Source: Synechococcus sp. RS9916
GTDB lineage: Bacteria; Cyanobacteriota; Cyanobacteriia; PCC-6307; Cyanobiaceae
NCBI RefSeq assembly: GCF_000153825.1
Contig: NZ_DS022299.1
Span: 1,576,869-1,640,868 of the forward strand
Reading direction: 5' to 3'
Length of the DNA stretch: 64,000 nucleotides
In this document: one piece after another, positions 19,012 through 27,264 of the stretch
Position numbering within the stretch: position 1 is the first letter of the stretch
How the letters are laid out: every line of letters begins with the position of its first letter
The notes under the pieces: generated by a model
What the model saw: the letters and a program-made list of their open reading frames with translations, nothing else
Database searches by the model: none
Told to the model about the DNA's origin: nothing
Position numbers and translations under genes: made by a program

Positions 19012-20283
19012 TCAGCTGTGCTCCCGCAAGAAGTTGATGGTCGACGTGAGCTCGTCGACGAAGCGGTCGATCTCGTCAAACGTGGACGTGAAGCTGAGGC
19101 TGGCGCGGGCCGAACCAGGGACACCGTAAAAGCGGTGCAGAGGCTGACAGCAATGGTGGCCACTGCGGATGCAGACCCCACTGAGATCGAGCATGGCGGC
19201 GATGTCGTTGGCATGAAGGCCATCGACAAGGAAGGTGGCCAAAGCACCACGCTCCGGTTGCTGCTCCGGCGTCGGCCCCAGGATGCGCAGCCCATCAATG
19301 GCCTGCAACCGTGAAAACAGGTGGGCCGTGAGCTGCGCTTCCCAGGCCTGAATCGCCTCGAGGCCAAGCGTTTGGAGATAGGTGATCGCCGCACCCATGC
19401 CAATTGCTTCGCCAATCGCAGGCGTGCCGGCCTCAAATTTGTGCGGCAGTTCTGCCCAGGTGCTGTGGTCCAGGAAGACGTCCTGGATCATTTCGCCACC
19501 GCCCAAGAAGGGGGGCATCGACTCCAGAAGCGCCTCACGCGCCCAGAGGAACCCCATGCCGGTGGGACCACAGAGCTTGTGCGATGAACCCACAAGAAAA
19601 TCAATCCCAAGCTGGCCAACATCCAGTGATTTGTGGGCCAGGCTCTGGCATGCATCCAGCAGCACTCGAGCGCCGTGCTGGGCCGCCAAGGCCACCACGT
19701 CATCCACCGGATTGCAGCAACCGAGTGTGTTGCTGATGTGCACCAGGCCCACAAGCCGGGTACGGGCATTGAGTTTGGCGCGCAGATCCTCCAGATCGAG
19801 GGTGCCCTGCTCGGTCACACCCACGTGCCTCAACACACAGCCGGTGCGCTGGGCCAGTTGCTGCCAAGGCACCAGATTGCTGTGGTGCTCCATCACCGTG
19901 AGCAGCACCTCATCACCAGGCTTCAGTTCGGCATCTCCCCAGGTGCGAGCCACCAGATTGATGGCCTCACTGGCGTTGCGAGTGAACACGATCTCGCGGG
20001 GACTGGCCGCAGCCACGAACTGCGCCGTGATCAGCCGGGCTCCTTCAAAGGCTTCAGTGGCCCGAGCGCTGAGCTGATGGGCACCACGATGCACATTGGC
20101 GTTGTCGCAGCTGTAGTAATCACGCAATGCATCCAGCACAGCCAGGGGCTTCTGACTGGTCGCCGCGTGATCGAGGTAAATCAGCGGCTGGCCAGACGCA
20201 GACTCCTGCGCCAAAACTGGAAAATCTGCACGTGTTCGCTCCGCTAGCGTTACAGATGCGTTACGACCAAGTGCCGCCGTCAT
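19012..20283 (-). CDS. sufS: Cysteine desulfurase SufS
   Basis: A 423-residue PLP enzyme that takes sulfur from cysteine and passes it to the SUF scaffold. The Schiff-base lysine is in GSSHKLCGPTG (about residue 235), the cofactor-phosphate region is MEHHSN, and the mobile catalytic Cys is in RSGHHCCQP (about residue 380). ATG 20283 overlaps the sufD stop by 4 bases (ATGA), so this start is preferred over the upstream in-frame one. It is the last gene of the ftrC-sufBCDS run. Confidence 0.97.
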   Translation of the reverse strand: MTAALGRNASVTLAERTRADFPVLAQESASGQPLIYLDHAATSQKPLAVLDALRDYYSCDNANVHRGAHQLSARATEAFEGARLITAQFVAAASPREIVFTRNASEAINLVARTWGDAELKPGDEVLLTVMEHHSNLVPWQQLAQRTGCVLRHVGVTEQGTLDLEDLRAKLNARTRLVGLVHISNTLGCCNPVDDVVALAAQHGARVLLDACQSLAHKSLDVGQLGIDFLVGSSHKLCGPTGMGFLWAREALLESMPPFLGGGEMIQDVFLDHSTWAELPHKFEAGTPAIGEAIGMGAAITYLQTLGLEAIQAWEAQLTAHLFSRLQAIDGLRILGPTPEQQPERGALATFLVDGLHANDIAAMLDLSGVCIRSGHHCCQPLHRFYGVPGSARASLSFTSTFDEIDRFVDELTSTINFLREHS

Positions 20284-21542
20284 GAGTTGAGGCCCTCTAG
20301 AAGCTGATCCGTGATCGGCCAACGCTGGGCCAGAGGCGGAAGCAGATCAACCACGTCCTGGCAGTAGCCACGCAACAACAAGGCCGCAGCAGTGGCAGCG
20401 GAAATTCCACGACTGCGCAGATAGAAGAGCTCATCTTCCTGAAGCTGCGTCACGGTGGCGCCATGGGCACAGCGCACATCGTCTGCAACGATCTCCAGCT
20501 CTGGCTTGGCGTCGACGCGAGCGCGATCAGAGAGCAGCAGATTGCGGCTGAGCTGAGCAGCATCGGTGCGTTGGGCAGCCCGGGGCACCTGAACGGCGCC
20601 GTTGAAAATGCTGTGGGAGCGACCAGCCGCCACCGATTTTTGCAGTTGATCGAGCTGTCCGTCTTCCCCCTCAAACCGCATCGCGGTGTGAGTCGCGAAC
20701 TGCTGATCAGCGTCGGTCAACACCAACCCCTTCAGCACCGTTGAGGCGTGGCCATCCACTTGCACCACGCGGGGCTCAAGCCGGCCAAGCTGCCAACCCT
20801 TGGCGACAGAGGTGAATTCATAGGTGCTGCGTGGCTCCTGCTCCACCGCCAGATGCCCAAGCAAGGAGGCATCGCCACCGCCAAGGGCAACCAGACCGTG
20901 GCGCACACGGGCTTCCTGACCAAGATGCAGTTCCAAAACGTGGCTATGGGCGGATCCGGCTGGCCCCTGGATCACCTCCAGCACCTCCAGCTCTGCTTTC
21001 TCTTCAACCAACAGCAGCATGCGAGTTGAAGCCAGGCTTGCCGCAGACGCCGTCACCAGCACTTCCAAAGCAGGGACCGATCCACGGATCCGCAGAGCCA
21101 GCACCTGAGTCGCCAGCGCGTGGTTGAACTCCACGGGCCAGGCCTCAGCACAGCCGCAGCGCTCGAGGGTGTGGCCGAGAGCCTGCTCCAGCTCAGCACC
21201 TCTGAGCACACTGACGCCCGCGGGGAGGCTGACGGTTGCGAGCGGATCGCTGTGGCCATCGAGCACAATCCTCCAGCCATCGGCTGGGCTCTCTGGCAGA
21301 TCAGCGAAGCCTGACTCCTGGGGAGATGAAGGCTGAGAGGGCAGCGCAAGGGCGAACAACCCCTCCAGACGCGCCAGATCGGTCAGCCGCCAATCCTCCT
21401 GACGACGACTCGGCAAACCGAGACTTGCCAAGGCATTGCGGCCACGCTCTTGAACGGGTTGCAACACACCAGTGGAGGCGGGGAGACGGGTTACCCAATC
21501 AGCAACCATTTGTGCAGTCGTGGCCTTGGAGGTGGCGACCAT
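20280..21542 (-). CDS. sufD: Fe-S cluster assembly protein SufD
   Basis: A 420-residue scaffold partner of SufB and SufC. The C-terminal half has the beta-helix core common to SufB/SufD (SRNLLLSDRARVDAKPELEIVADDVRCAHGAT) and ends with the typical helical region LRSRGISAATAAALLLRGY. It starts 2 bases after the sufC stop, and its own stop overlaps the sufS start, so the operon is translationally compact. Confidence 0.96.
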   Translation of the reverse strand: MVATSKATTAQMVADWVTRLPASTGVLQPVQERGRNALASLGLPSRRQEDWRLTDLARLEGLFALALPSQPSSPQESGFADLPESPADGWRIVLDGHSDPLATVSLPAGVSVLRGAELEQALGHTLERCGCAEAWPVEFNHALATQVLALRIRGSVPALEVLVTASAASLASTRMLLLVEEKAELEVLEVIQGPAGSAHSHVLELHLGQEARVRHGLVALGGGDASLLGHLAVEQEPRSTYEFTSVAKGWQLGRLEPRVVQVDGHASTVLKGLVLTDADQQFATHTAMRFEGEDGQLDQLQKSVAAGRSHSIFNGAVQVPRAAQRTDAAQLSRNLLLSDRARVDAKPELEIVADDVRCAHGATVTQLQEDELFYLRSRGISAATAAALLLRGYCQDVVDLLPPLAQRWPITDQLLEGLNS

Positions 21543-21544
21543 GA

Positions 21545-22339
21545 TCAGGACACTCCCTGGGCGCTGGCGGCAAGCTCCTGGTCCACCCAGTCGTAACCGG
21601 TTTTTTCCAACTCCAGGGCCAACTCCCGACCACCAGTGCGGAGAATCCGACCCGCTGCCATCACGTGCACGTAGTCAGGAGTGATCTCATCCAGCAGGCG
21701 CTGGTAATGGGTGATCAGCAGAGTGGCGTTGTCAGTGCTGGCGAGCTGGTTCACCCCACCGGCCACGATCCGCAGGGCATCGATATCAAGACCGGAGTCG
21801 GTTTCATCGAGGATCGAAACGACAGGCTCCAGCAACGCCATCTGAAGGATTTCATTGCGCTTCTTCTCACCACCGGAGAACCCTTCGTTAACGCTGCGCT
21901 CAAGGAAAGCAGGATCCATCTGCACCACATTCAGGCGCTCACGCACGTGGTCTTCGAAATCAAACGTGTCGAGCTCGTCGAGGCCCTGCTGCTGACGACG
22001 CGCATTGCTCGAGACCCGCAGGAACTCAAGATTGCTGACGCCAGGGATTTCCACCGGATACTGGAATCCGAGGAACACGCCGAGGCGTGAGCGCTCTTCC
22101 GGTTCAAGCTCCAGAAGGTCAGTACCGCGATAACGCACGCTGCCGCCAGTCACGCGATAGGCCGGGTGACCCGCGAGCACTTTGGAGAGGGTGCTTTTGC
22201 CACTGCCATTGCGACCCATGACGGCGTGAATTTCGCCGGCACGCACCTCAAGATTCACCCCCTTGAGGATGGGCTGGTCTTCAACGGACGCATGCAGGTC
22301 GTTGATCTCGAGGAGCAGCTCGGCGTCAGGGCGGATCAC
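21545..22339 (-). CDS. sufC: Fe-S cluster assembly ATPase SufC
   Basis: A 264-residue ABC-type ATPase that drives conformational change in the SufBC2D complex. It has Walker [10 protein letters not shown], the family-specific signature [14 protein letters not shown], Walker [18 protein letters not shown], and a switch histidine in [10 protein letters not shown]. It lies between sufB (64-base gap) and sufD (2-base gap) on the same strand. Confidence 0.98.
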
Positions 22340-22403: not shown

Positions 22404-23843
22404 CTATCCCACCGAACCCTCGAGCTTGAGCGCCAGCAACTTGTCGGCCTCAGCTGCAAATTCCATTGGCAGCTGATTGAACACATCACGACAGAAACCG
22501 CTCACCATCATCGAAACGGCCTCCTCAAATCCGATGCCGCGACTCTGGAGGTAGAAGAGCTGATCTTCCGAGATCCGGCAGGTGCTGGCTTCATGCTCGA
22601 TCGCAGCCTGAGGTTGTTGGGAGCGGATGTAGGGATAGGTGTTGGCGGCGGCCTCATCGCCAATCAGCATCGAATCGCACTGGCTGTAGTTGCGAGCGCC
22701 TTTGGCAGCCGGACCGATTTGGACCAGACCGCGGTAACTGTTGCTGGAGTGACCGGCGCTGATCCCCTTGCTCACGATGGTTGAGCGTGTGCGCGGACCC
22801 ACGTGGATCATCTTGGTGCCGGTATCGGCTTGCTGACGGTTGTTCGTGAGCGCGACGGAGTAGAACTCACCAACAGAATCTGCCCCCTGCAGCACACAAC
22901 TGGGATATTTCCAGGTGATGGCAGAACCTGTTTCGACCTGGGTCCAGCTGATGCGGCTGCGAGCACCGCGGCACTGACCCCGCTTGGTCACAAAGTTGTA
23001 AATACCGCCCACACCATTTTCATCACCGGCATACCAGTTCTGAACAGTCGAATACTTGATGGAAGCGTCATCCAAAGCGACCAGTTCCACCACAGCAGCG
23101 TGCAACTGGTTGGTGTCAAACATGGGGGCAGTACAGCCCTCCAAATAACTCACTGACGCACCTTCCTCGGCAACAATCAAAGTGCGCTCAAACTGACCTG
23201 TGTCACCGGAATTGATGCGGAAATAAGTCGAGAGCTCCATTGGGCACTCCACCCCCTTAGGGATGAAGACAAAGGAGCCGTCACTGAAGACTGCCGAATT
23301 CAGCGCTGCAAAATAATTGTCATTACTGGGAACAACACTTCCCAAATAACGCTCGATCAGCTCGGGATAATCCTTGATTGCCTCGCTGATCGAGCAGAAC
23401 ACCACGCCGTGTTCAGCGAGCTTCTCGCGGTACGTCGTGGCAATCGAGACGCTGTCAAACACCGCGTCAACAGCCACGTTGCTAAGACGCTTCTGCTCAC
23501 TCAGTGGAATACCGAGCTTGTCAAATGTCTCCAGGAGCTTGGGATCCACCTCATCGAGGCTGGCCTTCTTTTCCTGCTGTTTGGGAGCGGCGTAATAAAC
23601 GATGTCTTGGTAGTCAATCGCTGTGTAGCCCAGCTGAGCCCAGTCAGGCTCCTCGAGGGTGAGCCAATGCCGGTAGGCACGCAGACGGAAATCGAGTAAG
23701 AACTGCGGCTCCTCCTTTTTGGAGGAGATCAGCCGAACAACATCCTCACTGAGGCCCTTAGCGATCTTCTCAGTTTCAATGTCAGTGACAAAGCCGTACT
23801 TGTACGGCTGACTGACAAGATCACGTGTGGAGACACTGGTCAT
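22404..23843 (-). CDS. sufB: Fe-S cluster assembly scaffold SufB
   Basis: A 479-residue SUF scaffold component. It shows the SufB landmarks: GVEVP-like [23 protein letters not shown], the Cys-containing [17 protein letters not shown], and the C-terminal [14 protein letters not shown]. It starts 5 bases after the ftrC stop, so ftrC and sufB are almost certainly cotranscribed. Confidence 0.98.
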
Positions 23844-23848
23844 AGTGA

Positions 23849-24208
23849 TCAGCCTGCAGTGGCGTGAATCTCCTCGGTGCTGATGGTTTGAGCATCACCA
23901 CGGAAAGCGTTGTCTTCCGTCAGGAACAGCATGCAATGACATTCCTTGCGCTCGCGCATGGGCACACAGGGGCAGTTCCAGAAGGCCTGTGACACCTCAG
24001 CTTCCTTGTCTTCGTAATGGCGGCAGGGGCACAGGGCACCACCCAGTTCATCCTTGTGACGCGCCAGACCCTTGAGCACAACAGCGGTGACGCCGGGATC
24101 GCTGCAGAAATAAGTACCGGTGCGCTGGGCGTAGGTCTCCGCAAACTTACGGATCACCTCAAGGCTTTCAGCTGTGGGCTCAGCGTTTCCAGCGAGCATG
24201 TCAGTCAT
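23849..24208 (-). CDS. ftrC: Ferredoxin-thioredoxin reductase catalytic (beta) subunit
   Basis: A 119-residue [4Fe-4S] enzyme subunit that passes electrons from ferredoxin to thioredoxin and so links light to enzyme regulation. The exact signature CPC-x16-CPC-x8-CHC is present (residues about 60-93), with the additional Cys at FCSDPG. It is the first gene of the suf transcription unit. The variable subunit is not in the window. It is divergent from fba across a 229-base control region. Confidence 0.97.
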
Positions 24209-24269
24209 GAGCAGCGGTGGAGGGAGCGGTCAGCAGCGAGAAGCTACGAACGCGCAGACTTTGGGAGAT

Positions 24270-24289
24270 ACGAAACCCCAAAGTTTCGT
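24270..24289. promoter_or_regulatory. Candidate SufR operator
   Basis: ACGAAAC and GTTTCGT form a perfect 7-bp inverted repeat around a 6-base spacer. It lies between the divergent ftrC-suf and fba-sufR units. The AAC-N6-GTT core has the same arrangement as the CAAC-N6-GTTG operator reported for Synechocystis SufR. The nearby sufR gene makes this a strong candidate autoregulatory and suf-operon site. The position, 62 bases from the ftrC start, is compatible with promoter occlusion. Assignment is inference. Confidence 0.65.
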
Positions 24290-24437
24290 TTTTCGAGCCT
24301 AAGGCACCGTCTCGGCCACTGCCGATCGGCCCCAAGACCAAGGCCTTCATTGTGCGCCCCCTCGGCCTCTGGCGGAGGAGTGCTGACGAAGCAGAACAGC
24401 CTTTCTAGCTTGCGAAAAGACCGCCGAAACGCGCGCA

Positions 24438-25553
24438 ATGGTCGTCACCAATCAACCCATGGCCGGCTGGCTCGGCCCCCATGAGATCGCCAATCGCCCG
24501 ATTGCCGAGTGGCTCGGAGAGGAAGCGGAACTCCTGCTCCACACCCCGCCGCGTATCGAGCAGCAACGGCTGCAACTCCCCAGCCCAGCAGTGGTGGATC
24601 GCTTCAGTGGCTCCGATCGCAACCCCCAGGTGCTGCGAAGCCTTCAGCAGCTTTACGGCAGCGGTCGACTCGGAGGAAGCGGTTACCTCTCGATCCTTCC
24701 CGTCGACCAGGGGATCGAACACTCGGCGGCCCATTCCTTCGCGCCGAACCCTGACTATTTCGACAGCGAAGCGATCGTGGAACTTGCAGTGGAGGCAGGC
24801 TGCAGCGCCGTCGCCTCCACCCTTGGCGTGCTGGGGTCAGTGGCGCGGCGATGGGCGCACCGAATTCCATTCCTGGTGAAGCTCAACCACAACCAACTGC
24901 TCACCGCCCCCAATCAGCACGAACAGATCCTGTTCGCTTCAGTGGATCAGGCCTGGAACATGGGAGCCGTGGCGGTGGGGGCGACGATCTACTTCGGCAG
25001 TGAAGACTGCAACCGTGAGCTTCAGCAGATCGCGGCTCTCTTCGCCCATGCCCACGAGCGGGGGCTAGCCACGGTGCTGTGGTGCTATCTGCGCAATCCC
25101 ATCTTCAAGCAGTCCGAAGCCGACTACCACCTGGCCGCCGACCTTACGGGCCAGGCCAATCACCTGGGCGTCACGATTGGAGCCGACATCATCAAACAGA
25201 AACTGCCAGAGACCAACGGCGGCTACAAAGCCGTGGCGAACGCGCTGGGCGAGCCCTTCGGCATGACCGATGAACGCATCTACAGCGAGCTCTGCAGCGA
25301 CAACCCCGTGGACCTGTGTCGCTACCAGGTGCTCAATTGCTACGCGGGACGCATCGGCCTGATCAACAGCGGGGGAGCCTCGGGCAGCGACGACATGCAT
25401 CAGGCCATCCGCACTGCTGTGATCAACAAGCGTGCTGGTGGCAGCGGTCTGATCATGGGCCGCAAAGCCTTCCAAAAACAGCGCCATGAGGGCATCGCCC
25501 TCATCCAAGCGGTGCAAGACGTCTACCTAAGCCCGGAGGTGACGATCGCTTGA
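24438..25553 (+). CDS. fbaB: Class I fructose-bisphosphate aldolase (DhnA/FbaB type)
   Basis: A 371-residue Schiff-base aldolase of the archaeal/FbaB type, cleaving fructose-1,6-bisphosphate or condensing triose phosphates in glycolysis and the Calvin cycle. The family core is visible: [20 protein letters not shown], and [19 protein letters not shown], whose Lys is the likely Schiff base. [12 protein letters not shown] forms the phosphate-binding end. The last bases overlap or abut the sufR region, so the two may share a transcript. Confidence 0.95.
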
Positions 25554-25606
25554 GCACAACAGTCCCCCGGATCCCGTGGCATCGTGAAGGAACGAGCCGC
25601 GACCCG

Positions 25607-26248
25607 ATGGGCGCACACACTCAGGCCCCTACCCGAGAGACCACACTCACCCTGCTGCTTCGGCGGGGTGAGACCAGTGCGGCTGAACTCGCTTCATTGC
25701 TGGGGATCTCAGTTCAGGCGATGCGCCGTCATCTGCGCAGTCTCGAAGAGGAAGGCTTGGTGGAGTCATCGCCCATGCCAGCGGGCCCCGGGAGGCCATC
25801 CAATCGATGGCGGCTTACCGATCAAGGGCATCAGCATTTCCCTGACGGCAGCGAAGACTTTGCCCTGGGTCTGCTCCAGTCGATGACGGCCACCCTTCCG
25901 CCAGAGGCCATGACCTCTTTGCTGGCTCAACAGGCTCTTGAAAAGGCAGAGGCCTATCGCCGCCACATCGGCACCGCACCTCTTGAGCAACGGGTGTCTG
26001 TTCTGGCCGAACTGCGGCGGCGGGAGGGCTATGTGACAGACCTGCAGCCCGATCCCGATGGGAAAAGCTGGTGTCTCAGTGAATTTCACTGCTCCGTTCA
26101 ACGCATCGCGGCGGAGTATCCGGTCGTCTGCGATCAGGAGCTCGAGCTGATGCGTCAGACCTTTCCCGATTGCCAGGTGGATCGCGTGCACTGGCGCCTC
26201 AAGGAAGGCCATTCCTGTGGGTTCAGGATCACCCCCGACCATGACTGA
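25607..26248 (+). CDS. sufR: Iron-sulfur cluster biosynthesis transcriptional regulator SufR
   Basis: A 213-residue repressor of the suf operon. An N-terminal winged-helix domain (TSAAELASLLGISVQAMRRH, then LEEEGLVESS and GRPSNRW) is followed by a C-terminal sensor with four cysteines spaced C-x12-C-x13-C-x14-C (from HCSVQ to SCGF), the Fe-S ligand set expected of SufR. ATG 25607 is chosen; an upstream TTG overlapping the fba stop would add 19 unconserved residues. The protein likely binds the inverted repeat at 24270-24289. Confidence 0.95.
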   Translation: MGAHTQAPTRETTLTLLLRRGETSAAELASLLGISVQAMRRHLRSLEEEGLVESSPMPAGPGRPSNRWRLTDQGHQHFPDGSEDFALGLLQSMTATLPPEAMTSLLAQQALEKAEAYRRHIGTAPLEQRVSVLAELRRREGYVTDLQPDPDGKSWCLSEFHCSVQRIAAEYPVVCDQELELMRQTFPDCQVDRVHWRLKEGHSCGFRITPDHD

Positions 26249-26600
26249 GCCCCTCACCCGGGAGATGGTGGAGAAGATCGACGCGACCCTGCTGCCAACC
26301 CTGGATCGTCATCACCTTCGCCTGCTGGCCCACTGCTTAAGCAGCTTTCAACAAATGACGGCCCCTGGTGCATCGCGCACCATTCCTTCAAGAGACCAGC
26401 AAGAACAGTGGTGCTTGAAGCACCCCCTGCTGCGTGACGATCCCCAGTTTGGGATCCTGTTACTGAATCAATTCGAGGCCGCCGCACGACAGCTGGAGAC
26501 CCTGGCTCAGTCTTTGGATGTGGCGCCGCTCGACCTGACCCTTGATCACCTGATCGATCAAGCGGTTGCCCATGCGCGTGCACGGCTCGACGCTCCGTAA
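26241..26600 (+). CDS. Hypothetical protein between sufR and cpcS
   Basis: A 119-residue, mainly helical protein without signal peptide or membrane span. It starts at an ATG overlapping the sufR end by 8 bases (MTEPLTREMVEK). It has no motif I recognise. A central stretch around PSRDQQEQWCLKHPLL and a helix LLNQFEAAARQLETLAQSL suggest a small binding protein. It precedes cpcS by 55 bases on the same strand, so it could be cotranscribed with either neighbour. Confidence 0.75.
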   Translation: MTEPLTREMVEKIDATLLPTLDRHHLRLLAHCLSSFQQMTAPGASRTIPSRDQQEQWCLKHPLLRDDPQFGILLLNQFEAAARQLETLAQSLDVAPLDLTLDHLIDQAVAHARARLDAP

Positions 26601-26655
26601 CCCTGTTCGGCCTGCGATCATCCATTCACCCCCTGCGTTCGAACGGAAGCTGCGC

Positions 26656-27264
26656 ATGAGCCTCGTGATCCCCGATGCCCTCAGCTTTTTTCAACGCAGC
26701 TGCGGCCGCTGGCGCTCGCAGCGCAGCGTGCATCACCTCCTCCACCGCCGCGCCGAAGCGGGTGGCTCACTGATTGTTGTCGACGACATCGAACGCACCG
26801 ACCAACGCCTTCAAGAGTTAGCCACCTCCCATGGCCAATCCCCGGAGGCCGTGGTCGGTGGCAGCTTCGTGAGATGGAGCGCATCGATGGCCTGGGATCA
26901 AAGCGAGGAGGGCCATGACGGCGAAACGTTTTTCGGCCTGATCCCAGACTCCGATGACGGACGAAGCGGACTGCTACTGCGCACCATGGGCTATGCGGAA
27001 AAAGCCCCAGCCACATCGCGCTTTTCCATGGATTCCGAGGATGGCCTGATCCTGGAGACCGCCTACGAAACAATGACTGTCTGGGAACGGTTCAGCTTCC
27101 TGAGCCCAGACATTCGCGTGCGATCCAGCACGGTGCAGGGTCTCTCCAACAATGCGTCCTATTGCGTCGAATGCCGAGTCAACGAGGAACAAACCGAGGC
27201 GAATGAGGCCACGAAGCCCACAGCACAACCGTCGCAGCAATCGATCTCAGCCCTTGGTTGGTAG
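26656..27264 (+). CDS. cpcS: Phycobiliprotein chromophore lyase, CpcS/CpeS type
   Basis: A 202-residue lipocalin-like lyase that attaches a phycobilin to a conserved cysteine of phycobiliproteins (Cys84-type sites). The family order is visible: an N-terminal helix with FFQRSCGRWRSQRSVHHL, then beta-strands with FVRWSASMAWDQ, and the ending WERFSFLSPDIRVRSSTV. The C-terminal 25 residues are polar and extra. The exact paralogue (CpcS, CpcU or CpeU) cannot be fixed from sequence alone. cpcG lies 93 bases downstream. Confidence 0.88.
   Translation: MSLVIPDALSFFQRSCGRWRSQRSVHHLLHRRAEAGGSLIVVDDIERTDQRLQELATSHGQSPEAVVGGSFVRWSASMAWDQSEEGHDGETFFGLIPDSDDGRSGLLLRTMGYAEKAPATSRFSMDSEDGLILETAYETMTVWERFSFLSPDIRVRSSTVQGLSNNASYCVECRVNEEQTEANEATKPTAQPSQQSISALGW

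Follow-up and report, generated by a model that had tools for sequence, protein, structure and literature searches.

In Synechocystis sp. PCC 6803 the motif CAAC-N6-GTTG lies in the gap that separates sufR from sufBCDS (work of Wang 2004 and Shen 2007, cited after PMC4755962 and PMC13421787). According to the consulted sections of three papers, the oxidised SufR protein with its [4Fe-4S] cluster binds CAAC-N6-GTTG and represses suf (PMC13421787, PMC4755962, PMC6034842). The placing of ftrC under SufR has already been discussed for Synechococcus elongatus PCC 7942 in the accessible part of a review (PMC13421787). In the same strain, the same part of that review describes RpaB as a repressor of the group-2 sigma gene rpoD3/sigD, and the motif of RpaB as covering the point where transcription of its high-light targets starts (PMC13421787). 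A further described system is Rv1460, the SufR homologue of Mycobacterium tuberculosis, which is presented in the available text of PMC6034842 as an Fe-S repressor of suf whose cysteines are needed, and for which ChIP-seq sites outside suf have been reported.

The locus considered here belongs to Synechococcus sp. RS9916 and was analysed within a stretch of 64,000 nucleotides, called the window below. A short palindrome is placed in it 61 bp 5' of the ftrC start, between the ftrC-sufBCDS operon on the minus strand and the fba and sufR genes on the plus strand:

24270 to 24289, no strand assigned: SufR-type operator ACGAAAC-CCCAAA-GTTTCGT, recognised by sequence, conservation, position and co-occurrence with sufR
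23849 to 24208, minus strand: ftrC, first gene of the operon, encoding the catalytic chain of ferredoxin-thioredoxin reductase (Pfam PF02943)
22404 to 23843, minus strand: sufB, open reading frame in the same order as in relatives, named from sequence and operon order
21545 to 22339, minus strand: sufC, open reading frame in the same order as in relatives, named from sequence and operon order
20280 to 21542, minus strand: sufD, open reading frame named from sequence and operon order
19012 to 20322, minus strand: sufS, open reading frame named from sequence and operon order; the start given may be too early
24438 to 25553, plus strand: fba, class I fructose-bisphosphate aldolase (NCBIfam NF006707, over the cut-off)
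25550 to 26248, plus strand: sufR, repressor gene with a start at TTG 25550 or ATG 25607 (TIGR02702)

The original prediction had pointed to ACGAAAC-N6-GTTTCGT with the AAC-N6-GTT geometry of SufR sites, between the divergent ftrC-suf and fba-sufR and with sufR nearby, and it is borne out in these respects. The inverted repeat with the AAC-N6-GTT core is present at 24270-24289, and the SufR protein passes the TIGR02702 cut-off of NCBIfam (192.2 bits against 178.8). The operator is the sole exact match in the 2.66-Mb genome and also the sole match in the 64-kb window when up to three mismatches are allowed; as shuffled sequences contain 1.09 such loose matches on average, it is the exact match and not the loose one which should be considered remarkable.

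With FtrC as the query, two sets of ftrC loci (80 and 30, 110 together, with certain strains present in both) were assembled. In two loci, L028 and L068, the 600 bp 5' of ftrC are without the pattern GAAAC-N6-GTTTC; the other 108, some of which represent the same strain, contain it there. Conservation of the arms was assessed in 99 distinct sequences (107 rows with duplicates), leaving aside the ten positions which the pattern itself dictates. At the outer arm positions, on which the pattern places no demand, the 5' side carries A in 88 and C in 82 of the 99 sequences, and the 3' side G in 98 and T in 96. The pairs of bases flanking the operator consist of A or T in every case, while the six central bases vary. 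Taking into account the AAC-N6-GTT core, the adjacent sufR, the kept arms around a free centre, the position at the ftrC start and the co-occurrence with sufR described below, the palindrome at 24270-24289 is very probably the SufR operator of ftrC-sufBCDS in picocyanobacteria of both ocean and lake. It is one more case of an established type of SufR operator.

It could be argued that the operator is genuine and nevertheless read by another regulator, with sufR as a mere neighbour and the sigma gene described below outside the SufR regulon. The half-site AAAC in place of CAAC would speak for it, and so would the discordant genomes in a survey of 300 members of the family, in which the operator pattern was sought at no more than one mismatch and the SufR model was applied at E <=1e-15. 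Both operator and sufR were found in 206 genomes and neither in 77, sufR alone in 7 and the operator alone in 10, which gives 17 genomes with only one of the two against 283 in agreement (Fisher p 1.6e-51, a value in which independence is overstated, the genomes being related). Apart from this agreement, the site has the known SufR core and is located between sufR and suf, and residues 54-63 of SufR, in its predicted DNA-binding part, are mostly invariant across the aligned rows; control by another regulator is therefore unlikely. The same alignment, made of the window and 122 loci with sufficiently long matches (some of the same strain), has the cysteines C181, C194, C208 and C223 in 123 of 123 rows. 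Most of the ftrC loci have sufR and ftrC side by side in divergent orientation. Among the 7 genomes bearing sufR and no site at up to one mismatch, G049, G083 and G114 are at least 90% complete; among the 10 with a site and no detected sufR, the same completeness is reached by G245, G256 and G267.

The SufR operator stands next to a promoter element which came from the comparison of relatives; a scan with the sigma-70 consensus found no promoter at the locus.

24296 to 24301, minus strand: predicted -10 element (TAGGCT) of the ftrC-suf promoter; TANNNT is present near here in all 98 distinct relatives

The element starts between 22 and 7 bp 5' of the operator in every one of the 98 sequences, in comparison to 10.2 of 98 in shuffles, and in nearly all of them the start falls 16 to 12 bp from it. 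Transcription of ftrC-suf is predicted to begin near 24289-24290, on the border of the operator. The operator would thus cover the predicted start of ftrC-sufBCDS, and the cluster-bearing [4Fe-4S] form of SufR, sitting there, would block RNA polymerase. After loss or reduction of the clusters SufR would leave, and the ftrC-suf operon would be made. A separate block, CATTGTG or CATTCTG (24348-24354 here, in the sufR-strand reading), was noticed in 71 of the 98 ftrC loci, and 65 of its 71 occurrences are 49-58 bp away from the operator.

The operator is overlapped by another repeat:

24258 to 24284, no strand assigned: second inverted repeat ACTTTGGG-N11-CCCAAAGT, not conserved and judged incidental

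This repeat had also been announced in the original prediction as sharing bases with the operator, and it does so, the two spans having 24270-24284 in common. It had been proposed on this ground that the locus may possess two control layers, SufR on the operator and an RNA structure in the leader, and that a lack of conservation of either repeat in close relatives would refute the idea. The comparison of relatives divides the proposal: the operator arms are kept and the SufR-type operator is strongly supported, whereas the ACTTTGGG repeat is kept in none of the 97 other distinct loci (0-5 of its 8 pairs), without the stem conservation or covariation expected of a leader RNA switch. An attenuator or stability element formed by the ACTTTGGG repeat, acting beside SufR, draws its support from the RS9916 leader, in which the segment 24293-24209 folds exactly around the repeat (-24.1 kcal/mol, z -2.84, none of 200 shuffles equally stable). 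Against it, in addition to the missing conservation, no Rfam match was obtained for 23800-24800 at E <=1, no terminator-like site was found at the locus, and perfect repeats of like size are common nearby, for which reasons such a second layer is highly improbable and the repeat was rejected as an RNA switch.

The abundance of repeats can be expressed in numbers. The 6-kb stretch around the ACTTTGGG repeat holds 55 inverted-repeat pairs of at least 7 nt, and perfect arms of 8-11 nt occur in 10 others of the 25 longest listed nearby repeats (two of them self-overlapping palindromes). The ACTTTGGG-N11-CCCAAAGT pattern is the sole match in the window at up to three mismatches (0.25 in shuffles), a figure belonging to a pattern picked post hoc. 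Shuffling the flanks and N6 around unchanged operator arms produced an off-centre repeat of at least 8 pairs that overlaps the operator in 33 of 4000 shuffles; among the real loci an overlapping off-centre 8-pair repeat is seen in 3 of 98, RS9916 included, as compared with 1.1% in shuffles. The repeat is made of the variable centre of the operator and non-conserved downstream bases. It looks like a local accident with no conserved role, and it may have a strain-specific effect in the RS9916 leader RNA. That the two repeats were called mutually exclusive in their pairing matters little, because a protein operator is read as double-stranded DNA. In one other sub-clade (L010, L011, L097-L104) an ftrC-leader hairpin was noticed about 30-60 bases past the operator, with no overlap with it; as a candidate it is weak (8 sequences), with a two-sided change in 2 of 9 pairs and the same level reached by 50 of 500 shuffles.

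On the other side of the operator, class I fba adjoins it in the direction of sufR in 15 of the 110 loci. The gene was found in 9 of 31 genomes of the genus (E <=1e-40), by position always beside the operator, with no match elsewhere in the 31 genomes at that threshold. A class II aldolase is also encoded in the RS9916 genome. Provided that sufR starts at TTG 25550, the last four bases of fba are also the first four of sufR, due to which fba may share the expression of sufR; a metal-free backup class I aldolase beside sufR would fit iron sparing. A second AAC-N6-GTT was not found in the 600 bp 5' of ftrC (L085), where a degenerate site could escape the pattern. The class I aldolase match at G260:C1:306135-307202 contains one TGA, and that gene may be broken. 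A CpeS-like gene (PF09367) lies at 26566-27264, two genes 3' of sufR, and the order sufR-orf127-CpeS-like is common to most relatives whose loci extend that far.

The SufR-type operator is not confined to suf. A search of the genus at no more than one mismatch gave two operator sites in most of the 31 genomes, and most of the second sites directly precede a sigma gene that is orthologous between the genomes (above the TIGR02997 cut-off) and in RS9916 is one of two closely similar copies, the site at copy B being the one other promoter site of this type in the RS9916 genome:

G000:C1:951042-952004, outside the window: sigma copy B, with an operator at 952014-952033 (L002, L169, L332) that adjoins an extended -10
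G000:C1:2164602-2165549: sigma copy A, without operator

Copy B scores 436.2 bits against the TIGR02997 cut-off of 384.5, and regions 1.2, 2, 3 and 4 are all present in it. It remains under the cut-offs of the primary RpoD model (317, cut-off 500) and of SigD (416.7, cut-off 524), and it is thus likely a group 2 sigma factor. A census of the site covered those 24 genomes of the genus whose completeness reaches 90% or more. The site at the copy B promoter was read directly in 23 of them, 21 times at no more than one mismatch and twice at two (G075 and G283). In the remaining one, G295, the contig stops at the site, and the letters match the sigma promoter of sister strains, which suggests a copy B site there as well. 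The contigs of G169, G156 and G271 hold the start of the sigma gene only. Of 43 distinct sequences, 38 have an extended -10, TGNTANN(T/G)T, directly before the site (0.28 in shuffles). The operator-bearing sigma gene was found in other genera too, g6 included. The sufR-bearing G083 has a site with two mismatches at sigma copy B and another with two mismatches before ftrC in the corresponding locus L043; in G120 (74% complete) the operator precedes the sigma gene (L227), and sufR was not detected. Among 30 further sigma-gene loci, 29 contain no site at up to three mismatches (L262 with only 88 bp upstream), and the last is copy B of G283, in which the site is present.

A single site per genome at no more than one mismatch is not rare by itself, since the reversed control pattern gives 0-4 matches per genome at the same stringency, and it could be supposed that the match at the sigma gene arose by chance, or is simply inherited, and is devoid of function. 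This is extremely improbable: one and the same promoter, just before the sigma gene, carries the site in the near-complete genus genomes as well as in other genera, with kept arms and a changing centre, while of the 12 sites fetched from places other than suf and sigma 11 lie inside open reading frames, as chance matches would. In the 77 site-bearing loci chosen beyond the ftrC set from among the matches listed, 28 are at suf, 36 at sigma and 13 at neither. Besides the 11 inside open reading frames, these 13 comprise the contig end of G295 (L168) and L206, flanked by short open reading frames. No third recurrent SufR target appeared among the 77 chosen loci, and rarer ones could escape such a selection. 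The operator shared with ftrC and the co-occurrence with sufR suggest SufR as the regulator of the sigma site.

The CATTGTG/CATTCTG block seen at ftrC recurs in the opposite orientation at 53-58 bp in 10 of 43 sigma loci. At the same promoter, an HLR1-like (RpaB-type) repeat with three mismatches overlaps the copy B -10 in 8 of 43 sequences, many of the eight closely related (L145, L149, L150, L155, L164, L166, L222 and L226). The scan of sigma promoters used what we take to be the HLR1 consensus, which is encountered in 1.7% of shuffles at exactly three mismatches and in 0.2% at two. SufR and RpaB inputs may meet at the copy B promoter in some strains.

In RS9916 copies A and B are 92-93% identical in protein and 90.9% identical over the aligned coding part; blastn of the two loci finds a shared stretch only inside the gene, 829 bases at 96.5%. 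The sigma census covered 121 genomes of the family (E <=1e-100), with a match in 78 and two copies in 24. All 24 two-copy genomes possess sufR, and two copies were met in none of the 23 matched genomes in which sufR was not detected, G120 among them. Only one copy was found at this threshold in 31 of the 55 sufR-bearing matched genomes, and four single-copy genomes of g5 have sufR and a sigma gene without the site. Both copies were read in 23 of these two-copy genomes, each time with the site (up to two mismatches, within 300 bp) at exactly one of them; in the remaining genome, G059, the operator copy alone was read. Copy A also occurs in G056, which lacks SufR, and in the sufR-bearing g5 genome G061.

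Each copy has its own neighbour, mgtE beside copy A and a pseudouridine synthase gene beside copy B, in nine of nine genomes compared, belonging to seven genera. Twin identity was compared in 24 genomes (23 two-copy genomes and G283). Whenever two genomes of different genera are compared (260 of 260 pairs), the summed identity of the coding parts is higher for A with B inside the genomes than for A with A plus B with B between them; inside genera the same holds for 14 of 16 pairs. Syntenic copies are thus more alike within than between genomes, as is expected in concerted evolution, and the effect is weak in three of the 24 genomes (G023, G069 and G087), where the best orthologue of another genus is as close as the twin or closer. 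Constant neighbours and twins that are nevertheless closest within genomes imply that the duplication is old and that gene conversion has kept the copies uniform, which would be the simplest account. A tree often pairs both copies of one genome, and this would also be produced by recent duplications repeated in each lineage. However, such an origin is very unlikely in view of the neighbours constant across seven genera, as the same insertion place, with the operator beside it, would be needed every time.

Iron is frequently scarce for marine Synechococcus, and Fe-S clusters have a central part in photosystem I and in the assimilation of nitrogen. By analogy with published SufR, in Fe-S shortage sigma copy B would be released along with ftrC-suf. 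As the twin proteins are nearly identical, derepression of copy B would raise the dose of what is virtually one sigma factor and not introduce a different one. It seems rather probable that SufR controls two promoters, one for Fe-S assembly and one for a conversion-kept sigma twin, and that the Fe-S status sets the dose of the sigma factor and not its kind. For the model as a whole, i.e. a SufR operator at ftrC-suf, a further site at sigma copy B, twins kept alike by conversion and a dosage effect, a probability of about 0.82 is estimated. Its computed basis consists of sequence, conservation, position, co-occurrence, synteny and twin similarity; from these we infer SufR binding, the direction of control, the start sites, gene conversion as a process and the dosage effect. 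No report of a SufR-sigma link in picocyanobacteria was found in a literature search conducted without RegPrecise and most subscription papers. If the model is true, cluster supply and a sigma factor are joined in a two-promoter regulon, through which a small genome would respond broadly to the local shortage of a cofactor. Nearly one protein under two promoters, kept so by conversion, would moreover offer a natural test of dosage control.

The comparison with the described systems, as far as the accessible texts present them, can be summarised as follows. RS9916 resembles Synechocystis in the AAC-N6-GTT core of its operator, in the place of the operator between sufR and suf and in the neighbouring SufR gene. 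In contrast to CAAC-N6-GTTG of Synechocystis, the RS9916 site reads AAAC-N6-GTTT, with the half-site extended to ACGAAAC; the exact CAAC-N6-GTTG, which is the form of one species and not the shared core, is not what RS9916 carries. Further differences are that ftrC leads the RS9916 operon and that class I fba is inserted between the operator and sufR. For autoregulation of the Synechocystis form, with a second, weaker site for sufR, no counterpart was recognised here, a single AAC-N6-GTT being seen in the 600 bp before ftrC. With Rv1460 the predicted RS9916 SufR shares the character of an Fe-S-type suf repressor with conserved cysteines; unlike RS9916 sufR, Rv1460 is the first gene of the operon it controls, and a sigma-gene target is not mentioned in the consulted part of PMC6034842. 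The nearest parallel for the sigma gene is RpaB with rpoD3/sigD in PCC 7942, where, as predicted here, a group-2 sigma gene is under the control of a redox-linked repressor. The repressor and the signal are different, and in RS9916 it is one copy of a twin pair that would be gated.
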